Position numbers and translations under genes: made by a program. Under the pieces are notes generated by a model. The model did not search any database. It was not told the DNA's origin and saw nothing but the letters and a program-made list of their open reading frames with translations. Below are positions 1,924 through 49,866 of a DNA stretch of 64,000 bases, piece by piece. The number at the start of each line of letters is the position of its first letter. Position 1 is the stretch's first letter. The stretch is from NCBI GenBank assembly GCA_040757335.1, contig JBFLXB010000001.1, positions 248,001 to 312,000 of the forward strand, given 5' to 3'. This DNA comes from Nitrospirota bacterium. Lineage in GTDB: Bacteria > Nitrospirota > Nitrospiria > 2-01-FULL-66-17.

Positions 1924-3321
1924 ATGAGCATCTATCGCGAATACGACATTCGGGGCGTGGTCGGGACGGACCTGACGTTTGACGTAGCGGAACAGGTCGG
2001 CGCGGCCTACGGGACAACCATCCGCCGGACCGGGGGTTCCAAGGTCACACTCGCGCGCGATGTGCGGGACCACTCGGCGCCGTTGCGGGATCGACTGGCC
2101 AAGGGCATTCTCTCCACCGGGGTCGATGTGATTGACTTGGGCGTCTGCCCCACGCCGCTTTTGTACTACTCGCTGTTTCACTTAACGGTGGACGGCGGGG
2201 TGATGATCACCGGGAGCCACAACCCGCCCGAGTTTAACGGCCTCAAACTGTGCGTGGGCAAAGAAGCGATTTATGGCGACGCGATCCAAGCGCTGCGCAA
2301 GCTGGTCGAGACGGACACACGCGAGAGCGGCAACGGTCACGCGTCGGCGTACGCGATTATTCCCCCCTATTTGAAAGAGATCACCCAACAGTTCGCGCCC
2401 GCGGTCTCGGCTGCGAAGCCTCGGCCCCTGCGCGTGGCGGTCGACTCGGGCAATGGCGTGGCGGGTTTGGTGGCGCCGGCCCTGCTCCGCGCCGTCGGAT
2501 GCGAGGTCATCGAACTGTACAGCGAGCCGGACGCGCGGTTCCCGCACCACCACCCGGATCCCACCGTGCTCGACAACCTACGGGACCTCATGGCCGCGGT
2601 GGTGCGGGAACGGGCGGACCTCGGGATCGCGTACGACGGAGACGCGGACCGCATCGGGGTGGTGGATGAGCGGGGTGAGGTCCTTTGGGGAGATCGCCTC
2701 CTGGCCCTGCTGGCCGGGCCGGTGTTGGCCGACCACCCGGGCGCGCCGGTGATCGCGGAGGCCAAGTGCTCGCAGGTGCTCTACGATGAAATCGCCAAAC
2801 GCGGCGGCCAGGGCGTGATGTGGAGAACCGGCCACTCGGTCATCAAAGCGCGGATGAAGGAATTGTCCGCCCCGCTGGGCGGGGAAATGAGCGGGCATCT
2901 GTTTTTCGCCGACCGCTACTACGGCTACGACGACGCCATGTACGCCTCGTGCCGCGTGATCGAATTGTTGGTGCGCGAAGGCCGACCGATGTCCGAACTC
3001 GCATCGCGTTTGCCCAGCACCATCGTCACACCCGAGATCCGCGTGGATTGTCCCGACGCGCAGAAGTTCGAGGTGGTGGGTCGGCTGCAGGCGTTTTTTC
3101 GCGACGCGGTGAAGCGGCCGTCCGCGTTTCCGCTGCCGATTCTCGAGGTCATTGACGTGGACGGCGTGCGGGTCCGTACGCCGCACGGATGGGGCCTGGT
3201 GCGCGCTTCCAACACCCAGCCGGTTCTGGTGTCGCGGTTCGAAGCCGACACGGAGCAACACCTCTCCGCGATCAAATCGGCGATGGAGTCGCGGGTCAAG
3301 GAGTGCTGGTCCGCCTCCTGA
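1924..3321 (+). CDS. manB: Phosphomannomutase / phosphoglucomutase
   Basis: 465-residue alpha-D-phosphohexomutase. The phosphoserine loop is TGSHNPPEFNG with the catalytic Ser at about 98, the Mg-binding loop is DGDADR at 238-243, and the C-terminal domain carries the phosphate-binding R-x-SNTQP segment. It interconverts the 6- and 1-phosphates of mannose (and probably glucose), feeding ManC, whose gene ends 15 bp upstream. AlgC-type enzymes of this length usually accept both sugars, so substrate preference cannot be read from sequence. The 3' end overlaps the start of the downstream lipoprotein gene by 19 bp. Confidence 0.92.
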   Translation: MSIYREYDIRGVVGTDLTFDVAEQVGAAYGTTIRRTGGSKVTLARDVRDHSAPLRDRLAKGILSTGVDVIDLGVCPTPLLYYSLFHLTVDGGVMITGSHNPPEFNGLKLCVGKEAIYGDAIQALRKLVETDTRESGNGHASAYAIIPPYLKEITQQFAPAVSAAKPRPLRVAVDSGNGVAGLVAPALLRAVGCEVIELYSEPDARFPHHHPDPTVLDNLRDLMAAVVRERADLGIAYDGDADRIGVVDERGEVLWGDRLLALLAGPVLADHPGAPVIAEAKCSQVLYDEIAKRGGQGVMWRTGHSVIKARMKELSAPLGGEMSGHLFFADRYYGYDDAMYASCRVIELLVREGRPMSELASRLPSTIVTPEIRVDCPDAQKFEVVGRLQAFFRDAVKRPSAFPLPILEVIDVDGVRVRTPHGWGLVRASNTQPVLVSRFEADTEQHLSAIKSAMESRVKECWSAS

Positions 3322-4862
3322 TCGTTGCGGCGTTGCTGCTCGGGGCGTGCCGCGGCCCAATCACCTCCGACGCCAACACCTTTCGCCTCGTTCTTTCCAA
3401 CGAACCCCCCACGCTCGACTGGTCGCTGGCCACTGACAGCGTTTCGATCACCGTGATCGAGAATCTCATGGACGGGTTGACGCGATTCGATCACGACCTG
3501 CGTCCGGTACCGGCGGTGGCGTCGTCGTGGGACGTGTCGGACGATGGCCGGCGATACCTCTTTCACCTCCGCCCGGACGTCACGTGGTCCGACGGCGCGC
3601 CCGTCACCGCAGACCAGTTCGAATACGCCTGGAAGCGCCTGCTCGATCCAAAAACCGCGGCGCAATACGCGTATTTCTTGTATCCGGTGGCCAATGCCAG
3701 GGCGTACAACACGGGCAAGAACGCCGACCCGTCGAGTGTCGGGGTCAAGGCTCGTTCCGCAACGGAACTTGAAGTGATACTTGAACAGCCGCTGGTGTAT
3801 TTCCCGAGCCTCACGACCTTTATGGTGACGTTTCCGCAGCGCCGAGAACTCATCGAACGGTACGGCGACCAGTGGACCGAGCCGGGGCATTTGGTGACCA
3901 ACGGCCCGTTTCGCCTGGACGAGTGGTGGCACGAATACCGTCTCGTGCTCTCGGCCAATCCCCGGTACTACGGGGGCAAACCCCGAATCGATCGCGTCAA
4001 GATGTACGTGGTCAACGAGCGGACCACCGAGCTCACGCTGTATGAGACCGGGGATCTGGACTATGCGCAGCTTCCGCCGGAATCCATCCCGACCTTTGAA
4101 GGCACGCCGGAGCACCGGCGCGTGCCCATCCTGCGCGGCTACTACGTGGGGTTCAACGTGACCAAGCCGCCGTTCACCGACCCGCGCGTGCGACAGGCGT
4201 TCGCCCTGGCCATAGACCGCGACGAGCTTCCTAAGATCTTGCGGGGCGGAGAACGCGCCGCCAACAGTTGGGTGCCGCCCGGCATGCCGGGATACGAGCC
4301 AGACGTGGGACTGCGGTACGACCCCCAACGCGCGCGGCGCCTGTTGGCTGAAGCCGGTTTTCCCAAGGGCAAGGGCCTGCCGGTCATCGAGTACGTCTAC
4401 AACACGGGTCCCATCAACACCTTGATCGCCGAGAACCTGCAGGCACAGTGGAAACGTACGCTCGACATCGACGTCAGGTTGGACAACTTGGAGTGGAAGG
4501 TCTACTTGAAACGGTTGGACCAGGATGCGCCGGCCATGTTCCGGTTGGGGTGGGGGGCTGATTATCCGGATCCGGACAACTTCCTCGCCCTGTTCACCGC
4601 GGACTCGGGCAACAACCACTCACGATGGGCCAATGCCAAGTACGATGCGCTGGTCGCCCAGGCTGCGAGCGAACCGGACCCCGGCCGTCGGTTGGCCATG
4701 TATCGGGAGGCCCAGCGGATTCTGACGGAACAGGACGTGCCGATCATCCCCTTGTTCACTCACGTCAACAACGTCCTGGTGAAGCCGTGGGTCCGCGGGT
4801 TCGACCTGAACGCGATGGAGATTCTCTCGCTGCAAGGCGTCTCTATGGGAGCCCGTCCATGA
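3303..4862 (+). CDS. Peptide-type ABC transporter substrate-binding lipoprotein (OppA/DppA family)
   Basis: Periplasmic solute-binding protein of the family-5 (SBP_bac_5) type, 519 aa. The GTG at 3303 gives a short lipoprotein signal peptide with lipobox LLGAC within the first 16 residues. Downstream are typical family features: a PTLDWSLATDS N-lobe entry, the Y-x-F-HLRPDVTWSDG region and the late WGADYPDPDNF segment. The start lies inside manB (19 bp overlap). The two genes that follow encode the matching permeases, so this is an oligopeptide/dipeptide-like importer. No ATPase gene is in the cluster, so ATPase subunits must be encoded elsewhere. Ligand cannot be predicted. Confidence 0.9.
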   Translation: MLVRLLIVAALLLGACRGPITSDANTFRLVLSNEPPTLDWSLATDSVSITVIENLMDGLTRFDHDLRPVPAVASSWDVSDDGRRYLFHLRPDVTWSDGAPVTADQFEYAWKRLLDPKTAAQYAYFLYPVANARAYNTGKNADPSSVGVKARSATELEVILEQPLVYFPSLTTFMVTFPQRRELIERYGDQWTEPGHLVTNGPFRLDEWWHEYRLVLSANPRYYGGKPRIDRVKMYVVNERTTELTLYETGDLDYAQLPPESIPTFEGTPEHRRVPILRGYYVGFNVTKPPFTDPRVRQAFALAIDRDELPKILRGGERAANSWVPPGMPGYEPDVGLRYDPQRARRLLAEAGFPKGKGLPVIEYVYNTGPINTLIAENLQAQWKRTLDIDVRLDNLEWKVYLKRLDQDAPAMFRLGWGADYPDPDNFLALFTADSGNNHSRWANAKYDALVAQAASEPDPGRRLAMYREAQRILTEQDVPIIPLFTHVNNVLVKPWVRGFDLNAMEILSLQGVSMGARP

Positions 4863-4911
4863 ACGGGCTCCGAGTCCGGGAGTACTCGGACCACCTGGAA
4901 GGCAGACGCAT

Positions 4912-5829
4912 ATGATCCGGCTCGTCCTTCGCCGCGCAGGATGGGGGATCGGCGTCCTGTGGCTGGTGGCCACGCTCACCTTCGCGCTCCTGCGCGTGGC
5001 GCCCGGCGGTCCGTTCGATTCCGAAAAACAATTGCCGCCCGAGATTCTGGCGAACGTCGAAGCCAAATATCACCTGGATGAGCCCCTTTGGTTGCAGTAC
5101 GCGCGCTACCTCGGGGGCCTTGCGCGCGCGGACTTGGGCCCCTCATTCAAATACCTGGGCCGCGACGTGTCGATGATTTTGGCCGAAACGTTTCCGGTCT
5201 CGTTCGCGCTCGGCGTGATTGCACTGGCCGTGGCCGTCGTCCTGGGCCTGGGGTTCGGGGTCGCGGCCGGGAGCCGGCCCGATACGTGGATCGACCGCGG
5301 AGGCATGTTGCTCGCAACTGCCGGCGTGGCATTCCCCAACTTCGTGCTCGGCGTGGTGCTGGTCCTGCTGGTATCGCACCGGCTCCACTGGCTTCCTCCG
5401 GCGTTGTGGGAGGGGCCTCGATATCTGATCCTGCCCGCGGTGACGCTCGGGGTCGCTCCCGCCGCGTACATTGCACGGCTGACCCGCGCCAGCCTGCTCG
5501 ACGCGTCGCGACAGGACTACCTCAAGACCGCGCATGCCAAAGGCCTGAGCAGTCGCGCTGTGTTGCTGGTGCACCAACTGCCCAATGCCTTGATGCCGGT
5601 GATCACGATCCTCGGGCCGCTGACCGCGGCGTTGATTACTGGCTCGTTCGTGGTGGAGTACTTGTTCGCGATTCCCGGCATGGGTCGTTTCTTCATTACC
5701 GCGGTGACCAACCGCGACTACCCGTTGATCATGGGCGTGACGCTGCTCTATGCCGCGTTGCTGGTGTTCGCGAATCTCATCGTCGATCTCGCGACCGCGT
5801 GGCTCGATCCCAGAGTCCGGATCCACTGA
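4912..5829 (+). CDS. ABC transporter permease (OppB/DppB family)
   Basis: 305-residue inner-membrane permease of the oligopeptide/dipeptide importer family. It has the N-terminal helix followed by the periplasmic RVAPGGPFDSEKQLPPE segment characteristic of DppB, five further hydrophobic segments, and the cytoplasmic EAA-type coupling loop (DYLKTAHAKGLS followed by HQLPNALMPV). It starts 49 bp after the binding-protein gene and 10 bp before the second permease, so all three form one transcription unit. Confidence 0.92.
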   Translation: MIRLVLRRAGWGIGVLWLVATLTFALLRVAPGGPFDSEKQLPPEILANVEAKYHLDEPLWLQYARYLGGLARADLGPSFKYLGRDVSMILAETFPVSFALGVIALAVAVVLGLGFGVAAGSRPDTWIDRGGMLLATAGVAFPNFVLGVVLVLLVSHRLHWLPPALWEGPRYLILPAVTLGVAPAAYIARLTRASLLDASRQDYLKTAHAKGLSSRAVLLVHQLPNALMPVITILGPLTAALITGSFVVEYLFAIPGMGRFFITAVTNRDYPLIMGVTLLYAALLVFANLIVDLATAWLDPRVRIH

Positions 5830-5839
5830 GCGAACGCGT

Positions 5840-6646
5840 ATGACCGGATTCAACGTCGTGGTGATCGTGCTGGTGGTGTTCGCGGCCGCCTTCGCGCCGG
5901 TGCTCGCCCCGTATCCCTACGATGCGCAGGACACCGCGGCGCTCTACGCCCCGCCCTCGACCAGCCACTGGATGGGCACCGACCGTCTGGGCCGCGACCT
6001 GTTCTCGCGCGTGATCTACGGCACGCGCACGTCATTGCTGATCGGATTGTGCTCGGCCCTGGTTGCCCTGGCGCTGGGCACGGCGTACGGCGCAATCTCG
6101 GGCTACATCGGAGGACGGACGGATCAGGTGATGATGCGCGGGTTGGAGGTGCTGTACGCGTTGCCCGACCTGCTCGTGATCATCTTGTTGGGCGTGTTGT
6201 TGGGCCGGGGCACAGTCAGCATGGTCGCGGCGATCAGCCTGGTAGGGTGGATGACGGTCGCGCGGCTCGTGCGGGGAGAGATGCTGCGCTGGCGCGAGCA
6301 ACCGTTCGTGGAAGCGGCCCGAGCCACGGGCGCGAGCCACGGCCGCATCCTGCTGCGCCATCTCTTGCCCCAGACGATCGGACCATTGATCGTCACCCTG
6401 ACGTTCCGTATCCCCGCGGGCATCCTGGCCGAGTCCACGGTGAGTTTCGTAGGCCTGGGCATCGCCCCGCCGCAGACCAGTTGGGGCAGCCTGGCCGGGG
6501 AGGGATGGTCGGCCATCAAGTTCTACCCGCACGTGATCTTGTTCCCAAGCCTGGTGATCTTCATCACCATGCTCGCATTCAACCTACTGGGCGATCGTTT
6601 GCAAGACGTGTTGGACCCGGCCAGAAGTCGACGGCCGATATCGTAA
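5840..6646 (+). CDS. ABC transporter permease (OppC/DppC family)
   Basis: 268-residue second permease of the peptide-type importer. It shows the family signature HWMGTDRLGRDLFSRVIYGTR after the first helix and an EAA loop FVEAARATGASHGRILLRHLLP. I chose the ATG at 5840 rather than a longer upstream frame because it places the first hydrophobic segment at the N terminus and follows the upstream stop by 10 bp. No ATP-binding subunit follows; a TIR-flanked repeat begins 38 bp downstream. Confidence 0.92.
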   Translation: MTGFNVVVIVLVVFAAAFAPVLAPYPYDAQDTAALYAPPSTSHWMGTDRLGRDLFSRVIYGTRTSLLIGLCSALVALALGTAYGAISGYIGGRTDQVMMRGLEVLYALPDLLVIILLGVLLGRGTVSMVAAISLVGWMTVARLVRGEMLRWREQPFVEAARATGASHGRILLRHLLPQTIGPLIVTLTFRIPAGILAESTVSFVGLGIAPPQTSWGSLAGEGWSAIKFYPHVILFPSLVIFITMLAFNLLGDRLQDVLDPARSRRPIS

Positions 6647-6683
6647 GACCTCGTCACGAGAGTGGTCTCACGCGGTTCCTTAA

Positions 6684-6942
6684 AGGCTGCTCAAAAAGCT
6701 CCCGCTGCAAGGCCGCAAGGGAGGAGGAAACCGGAGCGTACTGGGTCGTACGTGAGGATTTGCCGAGGACGGCGAACCGAGCGGTCGCGTCTTCGACGCG
6801 CATTCCATTCCGTGTCCCTGATGGGTCACGGTGCGGTTTCCGACGACCGAGAATCTGCACTGCGCCGCAGGCGCAGCATGGAATCGTCCGTCTCCCTGCA
6901 GATGGCGAAGCAGCGCAGCAGAGGGACTTTTTCAGCAGCCTG
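6684..6942. repeat. Inverted-repeat element, type A, long copy
   Basis: Element bounded by imperfect terminal inverted repeats: AGGCTGCTCAAAAAGC at the left and its complement (read back as CAGGCTGCTGAAAAAG) at the right. It shares the internal core GCGTACTGGGTCGTACGTGA with all other copies in the window. This copy is longer (about 259 bp) because the centre holds an extra stretch of about 130 bp absent from the copy at 17.5 kb. Its right end directly abuts the stop codon of the PQQ dehydrogenase gene. No protein of its own is apparent. Confidence 0.8.
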
Positions 6943-8130
6943 CTACGGGACGATTTTGAGGATCTCTCCCGCGTAGTCCACCACGTACAGTTCGCGCTGC
7001 TCGTCCTCACCGAACGCGGAAATGCTTCGGTCGCTTTCCAGTAGTTTTTGCTGTTCGATCACCGCGCCCCCGTCGTACCGGAGCCCCCAAATTCGTCCGT
7101 TGCCGAAGTCTCCGTAGACGTACACACCGCATAGCGAGGGGATGGCGCTCCCGCGGTAGACGCGGCCGCCGATCACGGTCGTGCCTTCCGAGCGGGGGTA
7201 ATCGATGATCGGAGGTTCGAACCCAGCCGGTTTGCACTTGGGGTTCACGCCCGGGGTGCAGATCGTTCCCTCCATCACGTTCCACCCGTAGTTGCCGCCT
7301 TTGGTGATGAGGTCGATCTCTTCGCGGTCCCTTTGGCCCACGTCGCCGGCGAAGAGGCGCCCAGTAACGGGATCGAACGCGAAGCGCCATGGGTTGCGAA
7401 GTCCAAACGCCCAGATCTCCCCCGCGGCCCCCTTGCGCTTTACGAACGGATTATCGGGTGGAACCCCGTAGGATTTTTTCCCTTGTGAGCGGTCCACATC
7501 GATGCGTAGGATCTTTCCCAGCATCGTTGACAGGTCTTGCCCATTGCCGTCCGGGTCATTGCCCGATCCTCCGTCGCCAAGGGCGATGTACAGCATGCCG
7601 TCGGAGCCGAACGCGATGTCCCCGCCGTTGTGGTTCGAATAGGGTTGCGGAACAGTCAACAGGATTCGCTCGATCCTCCCGTCGGCCTGATCCAGGTGGT
7701 CACTCACACGAAATTCCGAAATCGCGGTGTGCAATCCCCCTGTGCGCGTCGTGTAATTCACGAAAAAGCGGCCGTTTTCGGCGAAGTTGGGATGAAACGC
7801 CAACCCCAGCAGTCCAAGTTCGCCGCCAGACGCCACCCGGTCGCTGATGTCGAGAAAGGGCTTGGACCCGCTCTGTCCGGGTTTCCGGACCTGGATCGTT
7901 CCGCGCTGCTCGACGACGAAGAGCCGCCCTGATCCGTCACCCGTGGAATAGAGACCGACCGGGTTCTTGAAGCCGGAAAGGGCCGTGACCAGCCGGATCG
8001 TGGGCATGGGCGGAAAAGGATCGGGAGTGGCGCACGGGGCGGGCGCGGCGCCGGCTTGACCGGTGGCGAGCAGACCTAGGCCCGAGGCGGCGAGGCTCAG
8101 GGACAGACGGTGACGAAGCGAGCGGAGCAT
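6943..8130 (-). CDS. PQQ-dependent sugar (aldose) dehydrogenase, periplasmic
   Basis: 395-residue soluble PQQ-type glucose/sorbosone dehydrogenase-family beta-propeller. It begins with a signal peptide ending near AGAAPA, then shows family blocks such as DGSGRLFVVEQRG, GGELGLLGLAFHPNF, NHNGGDIAFGSDGMLYIALGDGG and WAFGLRNPWRFAFDP. It likely oxidises an aldose sugar in the periplasm using PQQ and Ca; the physiological substrate is unknown. The ATG at 8130 is preferred because a GAGGAAAGGA ribosome site precedes it. The stop codon abuts a repeat element. Confidence 0.88.
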   Translation of the reverse strand: MLRSLRHRLSLSLAASGLGLLATGQAGAAPAPCATPDPFPPMPTIRLVTALSGFKNPVGLYSTGDGSGRLFVVEQRGTIQVRKPGQSGSKPFLDISDRVASGGELGLLGLAFHPNFAENGRFFVNYTTRTGGLHTAISEFRVSDHLDQADGRIERILLTVPQPYSNHNGGDIAFGSDGMLYIALGDGGSGNDPDGNGQDLSTMLGKILRIDVDRSQGKKSYGVPPDNPFVKRKGAAGEIWAFGLRNPWRFAFDPVTGRLFAGDVGQRDREEIDLITKGGNYGWNVMEGTICTPGVNPKCKPAGFEPPIIDYPRSEGTTVIGGRVYRGSAIPSLCGVYVYGDFGNGRIWGLRYDGGAVIEQQKLLESDRSISAFGEDEQRELYVVDYAGEILKIVP

Positions 8131-8270
8131 GGCGTAATCCTTTCCTCTGGCGGATGGACGATGTTTGAGGCCCGATGATGGCAGAGTTTTTCGCCGAGGT
8201 CTAGTCCCCATCCCCCGCGGATGGCGGAAAAACGGGCTTTGCAGGGAGGCCGAGGTTACGGGGGGGGTGG

Positions 8271-9338
8271 TTACCGTGGGAGCGACGGGGGGATGACGAC
8301 CACCGGGTCGCTGCTGAGCGAACGGATGAACGCGAGGAGATCGGCCTTGTCTTGCTCGCTCAACAGATCGAGCGGGGTGATGAGGGGATGGCGATGGGCC
8401 GGGCGGCCTTCGGCTTTGACGTAGAAATCCAGCACCTCTTCCAACGTCGCGAACATGCCGTTGTGCATGTAGGGCGGGCTATCGGCAACCTGCCGAAGCG
8501 ACGGAGTCCGGAACGTCTCCATATCCTCGTCGTTCAGAGTCACGGCGAACCGGCCTGAGTCCTCGGGCATGTTGTCGCGCTTCGGGAGCCCCAAGGCGTG
8601 AAACTGGTTGTCCGTGAAATTGGGTCCGTGGTGGCACGTCACGCACTTGGCCCGCTCGTTGAAGATGCGCACCCCGCGTTTGGCCGAATCCGACAGAGCC
8701 GACTCGTCGCCTGCCATGAACCGGTCCCACGGCGAATGGTTCGAGATGATCGTGCGTTCAAAGGCTGCGATCGCTTGTGCGATGCCGTCCACGCCGACGC
8801 CGGTTCCGAACACCGCCCGAAAAGCGGCGACGTAGCCGGGCACGGCGTTGAGTTCGGCGACGAGCTGCCGGAGGTCCTCGCCCATCTCGATCGGATTTTG
8901 GATCGGTTCCAAGACCTGCTGTTCCAGTGACGAGGCTCGTCCGTCCCAAAATAAGTGCGTGCGATAGGCGACGTTATAGAGCGATGGGACGTTGCGCGTT
9001 CCGAACTGCCCTCGGATGCCTTTCGCAACCCGTTGGCCGTTGGAGAATCCCAATGCGGGCACGTGGCAGGACGCACACGCGATCGTATTGTCCTTGGACA
9101 ACCGCGGGTCGAAAAATAGGGTCTTGCCCAGCTCGATTTTCGCCGGGGTCTGGAGGTTGAGCGCCGGTGTCGGCGGCGCGAGCAGGGGATAGAGATGAAA
9201 CGGCGGATTGGGCAGCGTGTCGTACAGGGTCTGCGGCGGGTAGGCGTCGGATTTCTTGGGCCGGGCCGCTTCGAGTGGCGATGCCGCGAGCATTGTAGTG
9301 TGAAGCACGAAAACTATGGCGACAAGCCGAGTGATCAT
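8271..9338 (-). CDS. Di-haem cytochrome c peroxidase / MauG-family protein
   Basis: 355-residue exported protein with two c-type haem motifs, CASCH (88-92) and CVTCH (232-236), in the arrangement of bacterial di-haem peroxidases. Other family blocks are LGKTLFFDPRLS, GTRNVPSLYN and TPSLRQVADSPPYMHNG. A signal peptide (residues 1 to about 24) follows the ATG at 9338. Upstream codons in the same frame come from the adjacent repeat element and are not part of the gene. It reduces hydrogen peroxide or oxidises a protein partner in the periplasm. Only 15 bp separate the start from the repeat, so any promoter must lie within or beyond that element. Confidence 0.9.
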   Translation of the reverse strand: MITRLVAIVFVLHTTMLAASPLEAARPKKSDAYPPQTLYDTLPNPPFHLYPLLAPPTPALNLQTPAKIELGKTLFFDPRLSKDNTIACASCHVPALGFSNGQRVAKGIRGQFGTRNVPSLYNVAYRTHLFWDGRASSLEQQVLEPIQNPIEMGEDLRQLVAELNAVPGYVAAFRAVFGTGVGVDGIAQAIAAFERTIISNHSPWDRFMAGDESALSDSAKRGVRIFNERAKCVTCHHGPNFTDNQFHALGLPKRDNMPEDSGRFAVTLNDEDMETFRTPSLRQVADSPPYMHNGMFATLEEVLDFYVKAEGRPAHRHPLITPLDLLSEQDKADLLAFIRSLSSDPVVVIPPSLPR

Positions 9339-36092: not shown

Positions 36093-36214
36093 GTTCGTCC
36101 GGAGTCAGGCATCAGGCCGATCTACTATCCGGACGCTGATATGAACGACCATGCGAAACGTGTTGCCCGTTTTTCACGCCCGCGGTCCGCTGCCTGCCAA
36201 CGAAGGAGGAACCG

Positions 36215-39200
36215 ATGACGCGTGACCTCAAACGTGGCAGCAGCGGTAGCTTCCTGATCTTCTGGCTAGTGCTGGCAGGATTCTTTGTTACTCAATCGCC
36301 GTCACGGGCCGAAACCGGGGCTGCCGACGGCAACGGGCAGCACCGCTCTAACCAATCGTGGGAACAGCGACTCGCGGACCAGGTCTCAGACGAATACGCG
36401 GCGGAGGGCCGCGCAGGGCATCGTGAGCAAGTCGAGGCCGCGATGCAGCGGTTGATGGAAGAGATTGCTCAAGGAGGCGGAGGTCATGGACATCACGCAC
36501 CCCAAGGCGCGTTCAGTCGGACCGGTGCGATGCAGCAGATGGACCGGAGCTTCTTTCTTGGCCCGTCCAGCAAGGGGGAAACCGTCACGGCAGGCGGGCA
36601 TTGCCCCAAATCAGCGCCGAAGAAAGAGTTCGATATCTCGGCGATCAATGTGGAGAATCCGCTTAATCGGTGGATGGACTTCCACCCAGGCTACATGTAC
36701 GTCCTGACTGAGAATGTCGACAAGGTCCGCCGGGAAGAGAGACTCAATCGGAGCGCACGCGCAAAGGGCGGACGGTTTGATCCGGGATCAGCCACCACAG
36801 GCCTGCAGACCGATATGATCCAGCCATTGGCGATCCGGGCCAACCAAGGTGACTGCGTTGAGATCCTGCTTCGAAACGCCCTCGATGATGAGGACGTCGG
36901 TCTCCACATTCACGGCACGAGCCTGATCGTCAAGGTGACGGGCCAGCCGGCGACCGCGGTCAATCCTGATTCCACGGTGAAGCCTGGGAGGAGTCAGACT
37001 TTCGAGTGGTTTGTCCGTCCCGCAGAGCAAGAGGGAAGTCACATGTTTCATAGCCATGTGGGAGTCGATCAGACCCTACTTGGGATGTTTGGGGCACTCA
37101 TCGTGGAGCCGACCGGTTCCACATATCTCGATCCGCTTACCGGACTCGAGACGACGAGCGGGTGGCAGGCCATGATTGCAAATCCGCAGACCCCAGATTT
37201 CAGAGAGTTCGTCATCTTCTACCACGAAATCGGAGATAAGAGCTTTCGGGTGCTCAATAGGCACGGGGAGACAATTCCGGGGCGTGACCCCAACACAGAC
37301 GCATACAATCCATCGGGCAGGGCGCTGAACTATCGGAGCGAACCGTTCGGTGTCAATAATCTTGCGCTGCAGGAAGAGTATTTTCACTTTGAGGACGAAT
37401 CGCTTTCGTACAGCGCCTACACGTTTGGGGACACTCCGGCGCCCATACCTCGTTCCTATGTTGGCGACCCAGCGAAATTCCGTGTGATCCATGGCGGAGG
37501 ACAGGTCTTTCACTCACACCACCCGCACGGCGGGGCGATCCGTTGGCTACGCCAGCCCAAAGCCGATACCAAGGCGGCTGAGATCATGACCGCGGCCCAA
37601 GACGGCCCCGTGAAATATCCGGTCATTCGGACCACGTCCGACCGAGTGGACGCGCAGGTCATTGGGCCGTCCGAAGCGTTAGACCTGGAAACCGAGTGCG
37701 GATCGGGACTATGCCAGGGATTGGCGGGCGATTTTCTCTTTCATTGCCATGTGGCGCACCACTATGTGGCGGGCATGTGGTCCTACTGGCGCGTGTACAA
37801 CACACTTCAGACGGGAAACTACCCCTTCGCGAGCACCGATACCATGCCGCCGCTGCAGGAGCTTCCGGATCGCAAGAGCCGAATGAAGCCTGCAGTCACT
37901 TCGGACAAACTGATCGGCCAGACCATGGACTGGTACGACAAGAAGTGGAGCATCAGGGACACAGGGTCCGATTGGTCGAAACCCATCCCAGACGTGTCGC
38001 TGCGCGATTGGGTCGCGATGATGCTCCCGCCTGCGGGACAGCCGGGACATACGGCCGATGAGGAAGGCCAGGTCCGTGCCCATGACGCCACAGTGTGGGA
38101 CTGGACCTGGGACGGCGCCAAAGCGCTGGGAGAACCCGAAGTGACCGGCCGGTTCCCGTGGCCGAAGTACAGATCCCCGATGCCGGGAAGACGTCCGCCG
38201 ATCTTGTTCGATCAGGAGACCGGAAAGCTCGCGTGGCCGCACTTCAAACCGCATTTCGGAAAACGCCCGCCGTTTGCGCGTCATCACGGCCCTGCGCCGT
38301 GGTTGGAACCGATTCACATGGACAAGGACAATGGCTCATTGCCGACCGAGCCCGGGAGCAAAGGCGGACCAGGGCAAGAGACCAACCAACCGGCGAAACC
38401 AGGGGAGCACGGGCGGTGGAGCCTGTGTCCGGAAAACGCCGGCCGTAAACAGTACACGGTTCACTTTCTTGAGACTCCAATCCAGTTGTCCCAGGCTCTT
38501 GGCGCCGCGAAGCCGGTGGTTGATCCCACAGGTCTTTTGTATGTCTTGAAGGAGGACGAGGCCGAGGTTCGGGCGAATCCAGCGAGTGACAAGACGATTC
38601 CCCTGGTGTACCGGGCCAATGTGTACGACTGTGTGGACGTGATCCTCAAGAGCGAGTGGGAGGACAACGACACCACCAATTTTCAGATGTCCAAGGTCAA
38701 TATTCACCCCCATTTTATTCAGTTCGATAATCAGGGATCAGACGGGGTGATCACCGGTTTTTCGTACGAACAGTCGGTTCGTCCGTTTATCCAGATGAAC
38801 AAAACGAAGCAGAAGGGCTTGCCGACGCCGATGAACGCGGTCTTGGTCGACGATGTGAAGGCAGGCGCGAACACCATCAGAGTCAAAATGGCCGACGGCG
38901 CCAACCCCTTTCATGTTGGGACAGACTTGATGATCGGCATGGACGAGGTCGAGACGTCCGAGGTGTTGTGGATAAAGGACATTCAAGGCGATGCGATCAC
39001 GTTTGCGGAGCCGCTTCGGTTTGATCATAAAAAGGGCCAGATCGCGTCCGTAGAGTTCGTCCGGTACCGCTACTGGGTCGATGCGGATGTCGGGACCGTG
39101 TTTTGGCACGACCACGCCATGGGTATGACGACGTGGCCGCATGGTGCTGTCGGCGCCATGATTGTCGAGCCGGTGGGCGCCACGTATCACGATCCGAAAA

Positions 39201-41035
39201 GCGGGGCTCCGATTCGAAGTGGCCCTGTTGCCGACATCCATTCGACCGAGCCCATCGGTTTCGGTGTGAACGGGAGCTTCCGCGAGTTGGTAGTGATGCT
39301 GCAGGACACAGTGCCGACCACGGCTCAGATCGTCACCGATGGGAACCCACCTGGACAAACGCTCCAGGTCGCGATTGACGCCGGACAATCTCTGTCATTC
39401 CAAATGCCCTATGATTTGGATCGGGTCGCGGTCAGGCATCTCAACGGTGGGACGCACACGAGCGGCAGCGGTCTGAACATGCGCGCCGAGTCCGTGGCCC
39501 GACGACTCAAAATCAATTCCGAACCTTCATTGGTGTTTTCAAGTGTTGTTCATCGGGATCCGAGTACGCCGATCCTTCGGGCATACCTTGGAGACACCAT
39601 CGTGTTCCGCCTGCTGCATTCAATGATGAATGAATCGCACACGTGGCATGTGGCTGGCCACGGATTTCGGCCTGAACGTTATGCCGAAAAATCGGCTCCC
39701 CGCAACGCCCAGCACGTGGGGATTGCGGAACGGTACGATCTTGTGACCACTGCCGGAGGGCCACAGCAGATGGCTGGCGACTACCTTCACTACAACGGTC
39801 GCTCGTCGCATCTATCGGAGGGCAGTTGGGGTATCGTTCGCGTGCTCGACAGAGTGGCGCAGGATCTCAAACCGCTTCCCGGGCTGGAGGAGGTTGCGCC
39901 TTCAGCGACCTCTGTGTGTCCTGTCGATGCGCCAGTGAAGACCTTTAACGTTCTCGCAGTAGATCGGGAACTCAACTACAATTCCAAGGCTCCAAGGTTC
40001 ATCGACGGCGAGTTTGACCGCCAGCTTCAAATCGCCAATCCGGCGGGGAAGCTGTACATGCTCGAGGGTGAGGCGAGCAGGGCGTCGACCGGTATTCAAC
40101 CGATGCCCCTGACCTTGCACGTAAATGTCGGCGACTGCGTCAACGTGACCCTCAAGAACAACATGAAGTCGAGCAGGGCCTCCTTCAGCGCTGATATGTT
40201 GGCGTTTGATCCCAAAGACTCTCAGGGCGTCAATGTGGGGATGAACCCGGGCGATCAGACCATTGGTCCGGGCCAACGCAGGACCTACACCTTCTACGCT
40301 CACCCCAGCTACGGCGAGACTGCGGCATTGATTCGGGACTGGGGAAGTTTTCTCAACAACGTGCGGGATGGTTTGTTCGGCGCGATTATCGTTGGTCCGC
40401 GTGGATCCACTTACCGGGATCCGACGACCGGATCGGATGTCACGCTCAAGAACGCCTGGCAAGTGGACGTCATCGTTGACCGCTCAATACCCGAGAATCG
40501 CGAACGGTCCAACTATCGCGATGCGTCGCTCTTTTTCCAAGACGAGGACAACTTGCGCACGTCGTTCATGCCCTATGTTTCTCAAGTAGCCGGCCTCACC
40601 GGTGTCAACTACCGCGTCGAGCCATGGGCATGGCGTGAAGAGAACGGATGTCTGGCTGCCAATATGTTTTCTGCGTGCGTTGTGGGTCAGCGTGAGCTTG
40701 CGACACCGACAATCGTGGCGCACGCCGGCGACCCGGTCCGAATTCATGTTTTCGGCGCGTTCAACGAGCAAAATCATGTTTTTAGTCTGGATGGGCATGA
40801 GTGGCCATTGGAGCCCAAGATGCCGGGAGCCGACATGATGAGTAGTCTGCAGTTCGGGGGAAATGAGACGCTAGATGTGTACTTGATGGACGGCGCCGGC
40901 GGGCCATTCCATCTCCCTGGGACATATCTCTGGCAGAACCATGTCCCGCCCTACACGATGGCCGGCCAGTGGGGATGGTTGCGGGTGCTGCCGGTTGGCT
41001 CGCGCGAAATCTTGCCGCTGGCTTTGGGGCAATGA
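36215..41035 (+). CDS. Giant three-module multicopper oxidase, exported
   Basis: 1606 residues, about three times a normal multicopper oxidase. A signal peptide (to about 33) precedes three homologous modules, each opening with a Y(V/M)L(T/K/E) strand and a R/H-N-x-x-D-CV (N/D/E)V segment: about 170-530, 750-1230 and 1240-1606. Module 1 has every copper motif: HIHG (231-234), HSH (279-281), HSHHPH (433-438) and HCHVAHHYVAGM (510-521), so it should hold one T1 Cu and one T2/T3 cluster. Module 2 keeps HPH (831-833), HDH (965-967) and HTWHVAGH (1142-1149) but has lost the HCH Cys; module 3 has lost most ligands. Likely a periplasmic or surface metal oxidase, in the size range of manganese-oxidising MnxG/McoA types; substrate unknown. 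Ribosome site GAAGGAGGAACC. Confidence 0.88.
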   Translation: MTRDLKRGSSGSFLIFWLVLAGFFVTQSPSRAETGAADGNGQHRSNQSWEQRLADQVSDEYAAEGRAGHREQVEAAMQRLMEEIAQGGGGHGHHAPQGAFSRTGAMQQMDRSFFLGPSSKGETVTAGGHCPKSAPKKEFDISAINVENPLNRWMDFHPGYMYVLTENVDKVRREERLNRSARAKGGRFDPGSATTGLQTDMIQPLAIRANQGDCVEILLRNALDDEDVGLHIHGTSLIVKVTGQPATAVNPDSTVKPGRSQTFEWFVRPAEQEGSHMFHSHVGVDQTLLGMFGALIVEPTGSTYLDPLTGLETTSGWQAMIANPQTPDFREFVIFYHEIGDKSFRVLNRHGETIPGRDPNTDAYNPSGRALNYRSEPFGVNNLALQEEYFHFEDESLSYSAYTFGDTPAPIPRSYVGDPAKFRVIHGGGQVFHSHHPHGGAIRWLRQPKADTKAAEIMTAAQDGPVKYPVIRTTSDRVDAQVIGPSEALDLETECGSGLCQGLAGDFLFHCHVAHHYVAGMWSYWRVYNTLQTGNYPFASTDTMPPLQELPDRKSRMKPAVTSDKLIGQTMDWYDKKWSIRDTGSDWSKPIPDVSLRDWVAMMLPPAGQPGHTADEEGQVRAHDATVWDWTWDGAKALGEPEVTGRFPWPKYRSPMPGRRPPILFDQETGKLAWPHFKPHFGKRPPFARHHGPAPWLEPIHMDKDNGSLPTEPGSKGGPGQETNQPAKPGEHGRWSLCPENAGRKQYTVHFLETPIQLSQALGAAKPVVDPTGLLYVLKEDEAEVRANPASDKTIPLVYRANVYDCVDVILKSEWEDNDTTNFQMSKVNIHPHFIQFDNQGSDGVITGFSYEQSVRPFIQMNKTKQKGLPTPMNAVLVDDVKAGANTIRVKMADGANPFHVGTDLMIGMDEVETSEVLWIKDIQGDAITFAEPLRFDHKKGQIASVEFVRYRYWVDADVGTVFWHDHAMGMTTWPHGAVGAMIVEPVGATYHDPKSGAPIRSGPVADIHSTEPIGFGVNGSFRELVVMLQDTVPTTAQIVTDGNPPGQTLQVAIDAGQSLSFQMPYDLDRVAVRHLNGGTHTSGSGLNMRAESVARRLKINSEPSLVFSSVVHRDPSTPILRAYLGDTIVFRLLHSMMNESHTWHVAGHGFRPERYAEKSAPRNAQHVGIAERYDLVTTAGGPQQMAGDYLHYNGRSSHLSEGSWGIVRVLDRVAQDLKPLPGLEEVAPSATSVCPVDAPVKTFNVLAVDRELNYNSKAPRFIDGEFDRQLQIANPAGKLYMLEGEASRASTGIQPMPLTLHVNVGDCVNVTLKNNMKSSRASFSADMLAFDPKDSQGVNVGMNPGDQTIGPGQRRTYTFYAHPSYGETAALIRDWGSFLNNVRDGLFGAIIVGPRGSTYRDPTTGSDVTLKNAWQVDVIVDRSIPENRERSNYRDASLFFQDEDNLRTSFMPYVSQVAGLTGVNYRVEPWAWREENGCLAANMFSACVVGQRELATPTIVAHAGDPVRIHVFGAFNEQNHVFSLDGHEWPLEPKMPGADMMSSLQFGGNETLDVYLMDGAGGPFHLPGTYLWQNHVPPYTMAGQWGWLRVLPVGSREILPLALGQ

Positions 41036-41036
41036 T

Positions 41037-42962
41037 ATGCCGTTGATCCGCCTCGATAACGTCTCGCTCGCCTACGGCCCTCGTCCGCTCTTGGAGCGGG
41101 CTTCGCTGGAGGTTCGCCGTGGGGAGCGGGTGTGTTTGGTGGGGCGCAATGGCGAGGGGAAGTCATCGCTGCTGCGTATTTTGGGCGGGGAGGTGGCGCC
41201 GGAGTCGGGCACGGTGTGGGTGAGGCCCAGCACGCGCATCGCGCACCTGGCGCGGGATGTGGCGCAAGACAGCCATGAGAGTGTGTTCGACGTGGTGGCG
41301 GGCGGTTTGGCGGAGGTGGGGCGGTTGCTTTCGGACTACCACCACGTAGCCGCGGAGCTCGCGCACTCGCAGAGCGACGCTGCGGTGCGACGCCTGTCCG
41401 GGCTGCAACACCAATTGGAAGCGCTCAATGGGTGGGAGTTGGAGCAGCGCGTGCAGGACGTGCTCGTCCGCATGGACCTGGACGGGGAGGCTGCGATGCA
41501 CACCTTGTCGGGCGGTCGTCGCCGACGCGCCATGCTGGCGCGGGCGCTGGTGTGTGAACCGGACGTGCTCTTGCTGGACGAGCCCACCAATCACCCCGAC
41601 ATCGAGTCCATCACCTGGCTGGAAGACTTCCTTGCGGGCTACGCGGGTGCGGTGCTGTTCGTGAGCCACGACCGGGCGTTTCTCAAGCGCCTGGCCACGC
41701 GCATCGTGGAGTTGGATCGCGGGCAACTGAGTTCGTGGCCGGGAAACTACGACGACTATCTGACGCGCAAGGCCGAAGCCATCGAAGTCGAGGAGCACCA
41801 CAACGCGCTCTTCGACAAGAAGCTGGCGCAGGAGGAAGCGTGGATCCGCCAAGGCGTGAAGGCGCGCCGCACACGCAACCAAGGCCGGGTGCGCGCGCTC
41901 GAAGCCCTGCGGGAACAACGACGACAACGCCGCGATCGCGTGGGCACGGCCAAGGTGAAGTTGGAGGACGCGGAGCGATCCGGGCAATTGGTGTTCGAGG
42001 CCGAAGATGTGACCTTCAGCTACAGCGACACCGTGGTGATCCGGGATCTGACCACGCGCATCATGCGCGGGGACCGGATCGGGCTCATTGGGCCCAATGG
42101 CGCCGGCAAGTCCACACTCATCAAGCTCCTGGTGGGCGAACTGGAACCCACGAGCGGCCGTTTGTATCGCGGCACCAATCTGGAGGTGGCCTACTTCGAT
42201 CAGCAGCGCGCCCAGCTCGATCCCACGGCCCTGGTCATGGATAGCGTGGGCGCGGAGAACCAGATGGTCACGGTCAACGGCCGGCTGCGCCACGTCACCG
42301 GTTATTTGCAGGACTTCCTGTTTCCCCAGGACCGTCTGCGCTCGCCGGTGAGTACGCTCTCGGGGGGCGAGCGCAACCGCCTGCTTCTCGCAAAGCTCTT
42401 TACCCAGCCCGCGAACCTTCTGGTTATGGACGAACCGACCAATGATCTCGACGTGGAGACGTTGGAGCTGCTGGAGGAAGTGTTGCTCGAGTGCCAGGGT
42501 ACCCTGTTGCTGGTCAGCCATGACCGCGCGTTCCTGGATCACATAGTCACGAGCACATTGGTCTTTCAAGGCGGGGGCACGATCGGGGAGTACGTGGGCG
42601 GGTACTCCGACTGGGTGCGCTCGCGGCAGGCCAGGCTCACGCCATTGTCGGTGTCTCAACCGAAAGTCGTCAGCCGGGCCCAGGGCATGCCGCGATCCCC
42701 TGAAAAACGCGACGGCAAATTGAATAGGCTTTCGTTCAAAGAACAGCGCGAACTGACTGGTTTACCGGCGAAGATCGAATCGCTTGAATCCGAGCAAGCC
42801 ACGCTCTACGCCGCGATCAGCGAGGCGGCCTTCTATCAGCAACCCGCAGAAACCATCTCCACGACGCTCGCGCGACTCGACACCGTGGCCCAGGAGCTTG
42901 AGGCCTGCTACGCGCGGTGGGAGGCGCTGGAAACCCAGGCCACGGCGGCCGATTGCACATGA
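41037..42962 (+). CDS. uup: ABC-F family ATPase (Uup type)
   Basis: 641 residues with two ABC domains and no membrane segments. Walker A motifs GRNGEGKSS and GPNGAGKST; signatures LSGGRRRRAMLARAL and LSGGERNRLLLAKL; Walker B LLLDEPTNHPDIES and LVMDEPTNDLD. The first EPTNHxD motif has Pro in place of the usual Leu. The C-terminal region after about 560 is a helical coiled coil as in Uup, which binds DNA or ribosomes. The start follows the oxidase stop by one base, so the two are probably co-transcribed by chance of packing rather than function. Confidence 0.9.
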   Translation: MPLIRLDNVSLAYGPRPLLERASLEVRRGERVCLVGRNGEGKSSLLRILGGEVAPESGTVWVRPSTRIAHLARDVAQDSHESVFDVVAGGLAEVGRLLSDYHHVAAELAHSQSDAAVRRLSGLQHQLEALNGWELEQRVQDVLVRMDLDGEAAMHTLSGGRRRRAMLARALVCEPDVLLLDEPTNHPDIESITWLEDFLAGYAGAVLFVSHDRAFLKRLATRIVELDRGQLSSWPGNYDDYLTRKAEAIEVEEHHNALFDKKLAQEEAWIRQGVKARRTRNQGRVRALEALREQRRQRRDRVGTAKVKLEDAERSGQLVFEAEDVTFSYSDTVVIRDLTTRIMRGDRIGLIGPNGAGKSTLIKLLVGELEPTSGRLYRGTNLEVAYFDQQRAQLDPTALVMDSVGAENQMVTVNGRLRHVTGYLQDFLFPQDRLRSPVSTLSGGERNRLLLAKLFTQPANLLVMDEPTNDLDVETLELLEEVLLECQGTLLLVSHDRAFLDHIVTSTLVFQGGGTIGEYVGGYSDWVRSRQARLTPLSVSQPKVVSRAQGMPRSPEKRDGKLNRLSFKEQRELTGLPAKIESLESEQATLYAAISEAAFYQQPAETISTTLARLDTVAQELEACYARWEALETQATAADCT

Positions 42963-48711: not shown

Positions 48712-49866
48712 ATGACACGCCGGGCCGCTCTTCTGATGTTCGCCGTGCTCACGGTCGGTTGGCTCGCGGGGTCGCGCGCGGTGGGTGCCGAGACCGCGTA
48801 CGAACTCTGGGTGCTTGATCAGGGCACGAACTCGCTGCTTATCTACGACGGGACCAAACTGGCCGCCCAGGCTCAACCCGAACGCATAGACCTAGCGCCG
48901 TTCGGCGGCGCGAAGCCGCACATGGTCGTGTTTTCTCCGAAACAGGATTATGCGTTTATTGCGAATGTCGCGTCGGGCCACGTGTACGTCATGCGCGGGT
49001 CGGACCGCAAAGTCGTGTTCAATGAGGACCTCGGCCAGCAGGCGCACGCCGCCGTGCCGTCTCCCGACGGGAAGCGCGCGTTGGTCGCGAATCAAAACGA
49101 CAAGAAGCTGACCGAGATCTTGACCGACTACGGCAAGGGCGCGTTCCGGGTCGGACGGGTGTTCGATCTGGAGCAGGCGCCCGAGTTGGCCGATGCTGCG
49201 GAATTTCCGGATCGGGCGCCGATCTGTCTGATGTTTACGGCCGACGGATCCAAAGCCTACGTGACCCTCCGCGGCGGCGGAATCGCGGTGGTGTCCTTCC
49301 CCGCGGACCAGGCTGCGCCGGCCAAGGTGACCAAGGCCTTCGGTAAGGTGAAAGACGGCATCGAGGCCAATGGGTGCGGCACGTTGCGAAGCGCGGACGG
49401 GAAACGCATGTATGCGAACTCGGGATCGGCATCGGGTGGGAAGTTTTACGTGTTCGACGCCGCCAAGGATTCGCTGATGAGCTCGTCCGCGCTGACGGAC
49501 ACCGGGCGCGACGCACACGGCGTCGCGTTGGCCGGCGGCCACGTGTGGGTCGCGAATCGGTCGGACGACAACGTTGCGGTGCTCACCGGCGACGGAAAAG
49601 TGGTCGCAAAGATCGACGGCGTGGGCGACGCCCCGGATCTCTTGGACGTCTCGCCCGGCGGGGATCGCGTGTTCGCCACGCTGCGGGGGCCCAAACCCGC
49701 CACCGGCACGCACGATGTGGCCGGCAAGTCGCCCGGGGTCAGCGTGCTTTTGGTTCAGGGCGGGGGCAAGGCCGCCAAACGCGAATTCATCATTCCGATC
49801 GGCGATCAGAGCGCCGAGTCTTCCAGCGACCCGCACGGCATCGCGGTCCGCAAGAAGAGCGGTTAA
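48712..49866 (+). CDS. Exported beta-propeller (YVTN-type) protein
   Basis: 384 residues, signal peptide to about 28 (VGWLAGSRAVGAET), then repeated four-strand blades with patterns such as MVVFSPKQDYAFIANVASGHVYVM, PSPDGKRALVANQNDKKLTEI, MFTADGSKAYVTLRGGGIAVVSF and VALAGGHVWVANRSDDNVAVL. About seven blades are expected. No enzyme residues or haem motif seen; such propellers often bind cofactors or scaffold periplasmic enzymes. The ribosome site CAGGAGGGAGAG is strong. Confidence 0.78.
   Translation: MTRRAALLMFAVLTVGWLAGSRAVGAETAYELWVLDQGTNSLLIYDGTKLAAQAQPERIDLAPFGGAKPHMVVFSPKQDYAFIANVASGHVYVMRGSDRKVVFNEDLGQQAHAAVPSPDGKRALVANQNDKKLTEILTDYGKGAFRVGRVFDLEQAPELADAAEFPDRAPICLMFTADGSKAYVTLRGGGIAVVSFPADQAAPAKVTKAFGKVKDGIEANGCGTLRSADGKRMYANSGSASGGKFYVFDAAKDSLMSSSALTDTGRDAHGVALAGGHVWVANRSDDNVAVLTGDGKVVAKIDGVGDAPDLLDVSPGGDRVFATLRGPKPATGTHDVAGKSPGVSVLLVQGGGKAAKREFIIPIGDQSAESSSDPHGIAVRKKSG

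Follow-up and report, generated by a model that had tools for sequence, protein, structure and literature searches.

The closest described system to the gene reported here is MnxG of the Bacillus sp. PL-12 Mnx complex (PDB 9bxa, the H340A mutant), an enzyme of 1227 residues and six cupredoxin domains in which the type 1 copper site lies in domain 2 and the trinuclear ligands are divided between domains 2 and 3; our literature search returned no paper on a cryo-EM structure of MnxG. Vasin et al. 2013 described this domain 2/3 location of the site in all bacterial six-domain oxidases that they analyzed (PMC3600357). Luecker et al. 2013 noted the family to which our protein belongs in Nitrospina gracilis and Candidatus Nitrospira defluvii and stated its similarity to MnxG (PMC3578206), and a study of the Manganitrophaceae reported two novel multicopper oxidases (MCOs) per genome that were not assigned to Mn oxidation (PMC9040806). 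Here, we describe a member of this family encoded in a 64,000-nucleotide stretch of a Nitrospirota genome (GenBank assembly GCA_040757335.1, contig JBFLXB010000001.1, positions 248,001 to 312,000), referred to as the window herein. The gene is a single uninterrupted open reading frame (ORF) of 1606 codons at 36215..41035 on the + strand, and all features of the oxidase given below lie on that strand and are numbered by window position. A first-pass annotation, made from the letters of the window alone, had correctly taken the genome to be Nitrospirota-like.

The best PDB match to the oxidase by sequence was MnxG (9bxa; phmmer, E = 1e-101), and the same entry ranked first when an AlphaFold2 (AF2) model of domains 1 to 4 was searched with Foldseek (E = 6e-49). 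As 9bxa is the H340A mutant, one type 1 His appears as Ala in the alignment. These matches bear out the kinship with MnxG proposed in the first-pass annotation. The two proteins share the six-domain layout and, as shown below, the placement of the copper sites, but the oxidase is nearly 400 residues longer and contains a long Trp-rich linker that MnxG lacks. It also falls outside MnxG in the strict sense, scoring 130.6 bits with the NCBIfam MnxG equivalog NF041487, for which at least 3100 are needed; this model gives the Priestia MnxG-type protein just 333 bits. In a phylogenetic tree built without the MofA and OmpB sequences, the Nitrospirota and Nitrospinota proteins formed a clade of their own with a support of 99, adjoined by a Streptomyces plasmid homologue, and the MnxG-type protein lay on the opposite side from this clade, with long branches. 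The window protein, hence, is outside the MnxG clade and in a separate Nitrospirota/Nitrospinota family. The Streptomyces homologue (L121, at 3308-8626 of a Streptomyces sp. NBC_00335 plasmid), a full-length protein of 1772 residues annotated as hypothetical, is 31% identical over 91% of the query and is the closest relative outside Nitrospirota and Nitrospinota among the records searched; its gene adjoins one annotated as CopC. The first-pass annotation had named a placement with housekeeping copper-tolerance or laccase types as one outcome that would speak against its proposal. No such placement was found, and an identity as CopA, CueO or laccase is ruled out by curated family scores far under the cut-offs (36.6 of 479, 22.9 of 525, and 25.4 of 559 bits, respectively).

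Other large MCOs resemble the oxidase more loosely. Ceruloplasmin and hephaestin, which were among the structural matches, likewise form a six-domain cupredoxin ring, but the window protein has no type 1 Cys in domains 4 and 6 and has its site at domains 2/3. MofA of Leptothrix and OmpB of Geobacter are large MCOs proposed to act in metal redox reactions, but they are clustered with mofB/mofC-type or related genes (PMC5566968), which we did not recognize among the neighbors here. No match to MnxE- or MnxF-like genes was found in the window genome, in a search without a positive control. Taken together, the oxidase appears from its sequence to be an unexceptional, well-conserved representative of the bacterial six-domain MnxG kind, which is already known.

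Only MCO domains exceeded the Pfam cut-off in the protein. When residues 128-560, 734-1222, and 1233-1604 were compared profile to profile, they proved homologous with 99.9-100% probability (E = 2e-37 to 2e-42), as expected from the three tandem modules described in the first-pass annotation. Each module consists of two cupredoxin domains, for a total of six domains in three tandem pairs, and the matches to MnxG are full-length. Domain 1 (approximately residues 128-325, 36596..37189) was delimited by Pfam Cu-oxidase_3 at 206-300 and by the module profiles, and is followed by domain 2 (residues 326-545, 37190..37849), in which 72 of 220 positions are invariant among 108 close homologues. The Trp-rich linker (residues 546-733, 37850..38413; 32 of 188 positions invariant) joins modules 1 and 2. 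Alignment and module profiles place domain 3 at residues 734-1010 (38414..39244), and the alignment places domain 4 at residues 1011-1222 (39245..39880), domain 5, which has no HxH motifs, at residues 1233-1410 (39911..40444), and domain 6 at residues 1411-1604 (40445..41026).

To map ligand conservation, we aligned the 108 close homologues and six distant ones. Twelve ligand positions were invariant in 108/108 homologues, eight in domain 2 (H433, H436, H438, H510, C511, H512, H516, and M521) and four in domain 3 (H831, H833, H965, and H967). In domain 2, the segment HSHHPH (37511..37528) would provide H433 to the type 1 site and H436 and H438 to the trinuclear site, and the motif HCHVAHHYVAGM (residues 510-521, 37742..37777) would provide C511, H516, and M521 to the former and H510 and H512 to the latter. 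The remaining predicted trinuclear ligands are in domain 3, in an HPH motif (H831 and H833, 38705..38713) that is also found in the MnxG-type and Streptomyces homologues, and in an HDH motif (H965 and H967, 39107..39115). The Priestia MnxG-type protein and the homologues from Haladaptatus, Streptomyces, and Indioceanicola share all 12 ligands and lack the full set of domain 1. A Rubrobacter relative has Phe in place of the axial Met, and a Pseudonocardia relative has lost several copper ligands. The domain 1 motifs HIH (H231 and H233, 36905..36913) and HSH (H279 and H281, 37049..37057) are not conserved family-wide: H231 is present in 55, H233 in 49, and H281 in 42 of the 108 homologues, and the four positions read, for instance, FQHY, VQHW, or HHHY in Nitrospira proteins and QNQH in Nitrospinota proteins. 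Because the ligands of domains 2 and 3 are invariant and the HxH motifs of domain 1 are not conserved, we place the predicted type 1 copper in domain 2 and one trinuclear center at the interface of domains 2 and 3.

This placement changes how the modules are understood. The first-pass annotation was right that module 1 holds all four textbook copper motifs, including the one at residues 510-521, and from this had concluded that module 1 alone is live and that modules 2 and 3 are decayed. While the motifs do fall within residues 128-560, the domain 1 histidines are absent from most of the family and from MnxG, which contradicts domains 1 and 2 as a complete center, whereas those of domain 3 never vary. 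We therefore consider it very improbable that module 1 is the sole live unit beside two decayed copies. The predicted active site extends over both module 1 and module 2, and since module 2 supplies half of the trinuclear site, it is not a decayed copy.

The family is not restricted to manganese oxidizers. Matches were found in 132/132 class-mates of at least 90% completeness, most of which are nitrite oxidizers, and outside the class the phylum yielded only eight weak partial matches; within a separate set of 40 relatives, one genome (85% complete) had no match. The named matches include Nitrospira, Ca. Nitrospira defluvii (three copies, 57-59% identity), Ca. Manganitrophus (three copies), Troglogloeales, and Nitrospinota. 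Ca. Manganitrophus is among the nearest relatives, two of the three copies in Ca. Manganitrophus GAC4 being 72-74% identical to the window oxidase with the same ligand set. The window genome itself holds three copies, the other two being close paralogues (77% and 73%). Its family appears to include the metagenome-assembled genome RIFCSPHIGHO2_01_FULL_66_17, whose oxidase (L016) is identical to one (L085) from a genome (G002) of the same family as the window genome. In Nitrospina gracilis and Ca. Nitrospira defluvii, the oxidase gene lies within the nitrite-oxidoreductase cluster (PMC3578206), but we found no nitrite oxidoreductase in the window genome, which is 99% complete: there was no NxrA match at E <= 1e-50, and none of the three molybdopterin matches was of NxrA size. 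By eye, one of these proteins (L129) resembles nitrate reductase or formate dehydrogenase and two (L130 and L131) resemble NuoG. These results do not support a role linked to nitrite oxidation itself. As nearly every member of the class carries the family, nitrite oxidizers included, the gene does not mark manganese oxidizers, and the special tie to a manganese-oxidizing lineage suggested in the first-pass annotation does not hold, the family being present in Nitrospinota as well. Two records call for care. The oxidase on a 5.8-kb contig titled Candidatus Poseidoniales archaeon (L035) nests within the Nitrospinota clade, so that this contig probably comes from Nitrospinota and was mis-binned, and in-frame stops in two homologous genes (L096 on G009:C39, and G011:C7) reflect either real decay or assembly errors.

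A second gene commonly accompanies the oxidase. In 57 of the 80 family loci having a neighbor, a secreted-looking protein of ∼312 residues is encoded directly downstream on the same strand. It carries the invariant set H164...C217-x2-H220-x2-M223 and two more Cys (numbering of L017:13030-13995) and ends in a carboxypeptidase-regulatory-like domain. Its AF2 model (predicted local distance difference test score, pLDDT, 86.6) gave Foldseek cupredoxin matches with probability near 1 and modest E values (2e-3 and up). From the model and the ligand set, the partner would be a type-1-copper-like carrier of electrons or copper; we found no paper describing a comparable protein encoded next to oxidases of this kind. 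Several partner genes stand beside the other two oxidase copies of the window genome, and one more is on contig C3. They are clustered, about three beside each of these copies (C1:117679-121022 and C6:33133-41232; L002, L003, L132-L136), and give the impression that each enzyme is served by several carriers.

Based on these results, we favor, with rather better than even confidence, an oxidase of the MnxG kind with six domains and a single center at domains 2/3, either secreted or periplasmic. It would act as a core metallo-oxidase of aerobic Nitrospiria and Nitrospinota, whose periplasm is exposed to oxygen and metals. Export would follow from a putative Sec signal peptide at residues 1-32 (36215..36310), recognized by eye in the translation. 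The enzyme would be loaded with four coppers. Electrons from the substrate would enter singly at the type 1 copper of domain 2 (H433, C511, H516, and M521), cross the H510-C511-H512 bridge to the trinuclear center (H436, H438, H510, and H512 with H831, H833, H965, and H967), and there reduce O2 to water. Domains 4 to 6 would be the structural remainder of the six-domain ring, and the oxidase would normally be paired with the cupredoxin-like partner. As to the substrate, oxidation of Mn, Fe, or Cu is the function that we judge somewhat more likely than not, though any choice among Mn(II), Fe(II), and Cu(I) would be a guess. We take the Asp beside the HCH motif of ceruloplasmin, which serves its ferroxidase activity, to correspond to H515 here (37757-37759). 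This position is His in representative copies of the main family and Gln in Manganitrophus subfamily-2 and Streptomyces copies, and H515 is a possible substrate-metal ligand next to the type 1 site. Several observations weigh against this picture. The MCOs of the Manganitrophaceae have not been shown to oxidize Mn (PMC9040806). The AF2 model of domains 1 to 4 had a pLDDT of 71, with domain 2 mostly below 60, which is too weak for the geometry of the copper ligands to be verified in three dimensions. Lastly, no partner gene adjoins the window copy, unlike the two Ca. Manganitrophus GAC4 copies of 72-74% identity, in which partner genes are directly downstream (L005 and L007); the window copy would use partners in trans or act alone.

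More specific functions can be set against a general metallo-oxidase, chiefly the handling of copper and protection through Mn(III). An oxidase that detoxifies Cu(I) or serves copper homeostasis, with the cupredoxin-like protein as copper carrier, would fit the CopC-annotated genes that adjoin the Streptomyces and Priestia plasmid relatives as well as the copper-like ligand set of the partner. We nonetheless regard it as unlikely, given that CopA and CueO family scores are not reached, that visual inspection showed no Met-rich segment for copper entry, and that we recognized no copper pump in the commonest neighbor clusters, the majority of them assessed by eye alone. Protection through Mn(III), which would quench periplasmic superoxide, was proposed for the Nitrospina and Nitrospira enzymes from their similarity to the MnxG of strain SG-1 and from missing superoxide dismutase and catalase (PMC3578206). 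The broad distribution of the family in the class agrees with such a defense, but the published idea is a proposal only, and we give it a rather low probability.

The kinship with MnxG, the cupredoxin-like partner gene, the place of Ca. Manganitrophus among the nearest relatives, and the two novel MCOs in every Manganitrophaceae genome (PMC9040806) could also point to a lithotrophic enzyme that passes electrons from Mn(II) to a carrier, perhaps the partner, for energy conservation. The gene is, however, equally universal in nitrite oxidizers and occurs in Nitrospinota, the intact trinuclear site implies that electrons would flow to O2, and the authors of PMC9040806 prefer Cyc2 and a porin-cytochrome complex for this task. 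Presence in nitrite oxidizers and in the window genome, which has no NxrA match, makes a role specific to manganese lithotrophy improbable, and we hold this explanation to be a distant one. Of the role in metal oxidation that the first-pass annotation found attractive, the metallo-oxidase itself remains plausible through MnxG kinship, and its specificity for a manganese lineage is lost.

In addition to the center at domains 2/3, the window protein retains all four domain 1 histidines (H231, H233, H279, and H281) and H1576 (40940..40942), the third position of the former HCH motif of domain 6. Vasin et al. 2013 had already noted residual ligands between these two domains (PMC3600357); we add that they are retained jointly and that this retention is linked to host metabolism. 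Among the 121 alignment rows having a letter at position 1576, His was found in 30/30 proteins with the full domain 1 quartet and in 0/91 without it. On the gene tree, the quartet and H1576 change three times, both halves together each time, which would most simply be three losses; three events are too few for significance of the correlated change. The quartet and H1576 occur in host families f1, f3, and f5-f11 (a few rows being incomplete) and not in f2, f12, and f13, the only host families with NxrA matches (27 genomes without a match are not listed by name). They are also missing from Nitrospinota, which are known nitrite oxidizers, and the histidines lost in the Nitrospina gracilis and Ca. 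Nitrospira defluvii oxidases are kept in the window copy. Domain 6 retains just H1576 of the four positions and domain 1 is variable, which falls short of a ceruloplasmin-type trinuclear site between domains 1 and 6. By analogy to ascorbate oxidase, H233, H279, and H1576 would presumably make one complete three-His, type-3-like copper site. That the quartet and H1576 occur together suggests a second metal site, and we tentatively propose, at less than even confidence, that such a site exists in the window clade and in other lineages without an NxrA match, that it differs in the nitrite-oxidizing lineages (Nitrospiraceae-type families and Nitrospinota), and that the enzyme comes in two functional forms following host energy metabolism.

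Within the window, a strong Shine-Dalgarno sequence (AAGGAGG, 36203-36209) precedes the ORF. The neighbors, named by eye, are a dihydroxy-acid dehydratase gene before the oxidase and, directly after it, an ABC-F ATPase gene with a likely start at 41037, just beyond the stop codon. Farther downstream, right behind biotin-carboxylase- and pyruvate-carboxylase-like genes, 48712-49866 (+) encodes a secreted-looking protein of 384 residues that is beta-propeller-like by eye. Beside the Nitrospira oxidase copies, NtrC-type response regulators, 7TM/GAF histidine kinases, and FGE-sulfatase-domain proteins recur (L068, L047, L058, and others).

The oxidase gene is conserved throughout Nitrospiria, a class that includes major nitrite oxidizers and cultured manganese lithoautotrophs, and its function has been guessed and, as far as the literature found shows, never tested. 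Our analysis points to the histidines of domain 3, not those of domain 1, as targets for mutation, and speaks against using the gene to mark manganese oxidation. Together with its cupredoxin-like partner, the oxidase forms a testable pair. Should the second histidine site, linked to metabolism, prove real, a comparison of the Nitrospira enzyme with that of the Manganitrophus type would reveal the purpose of the extra site.
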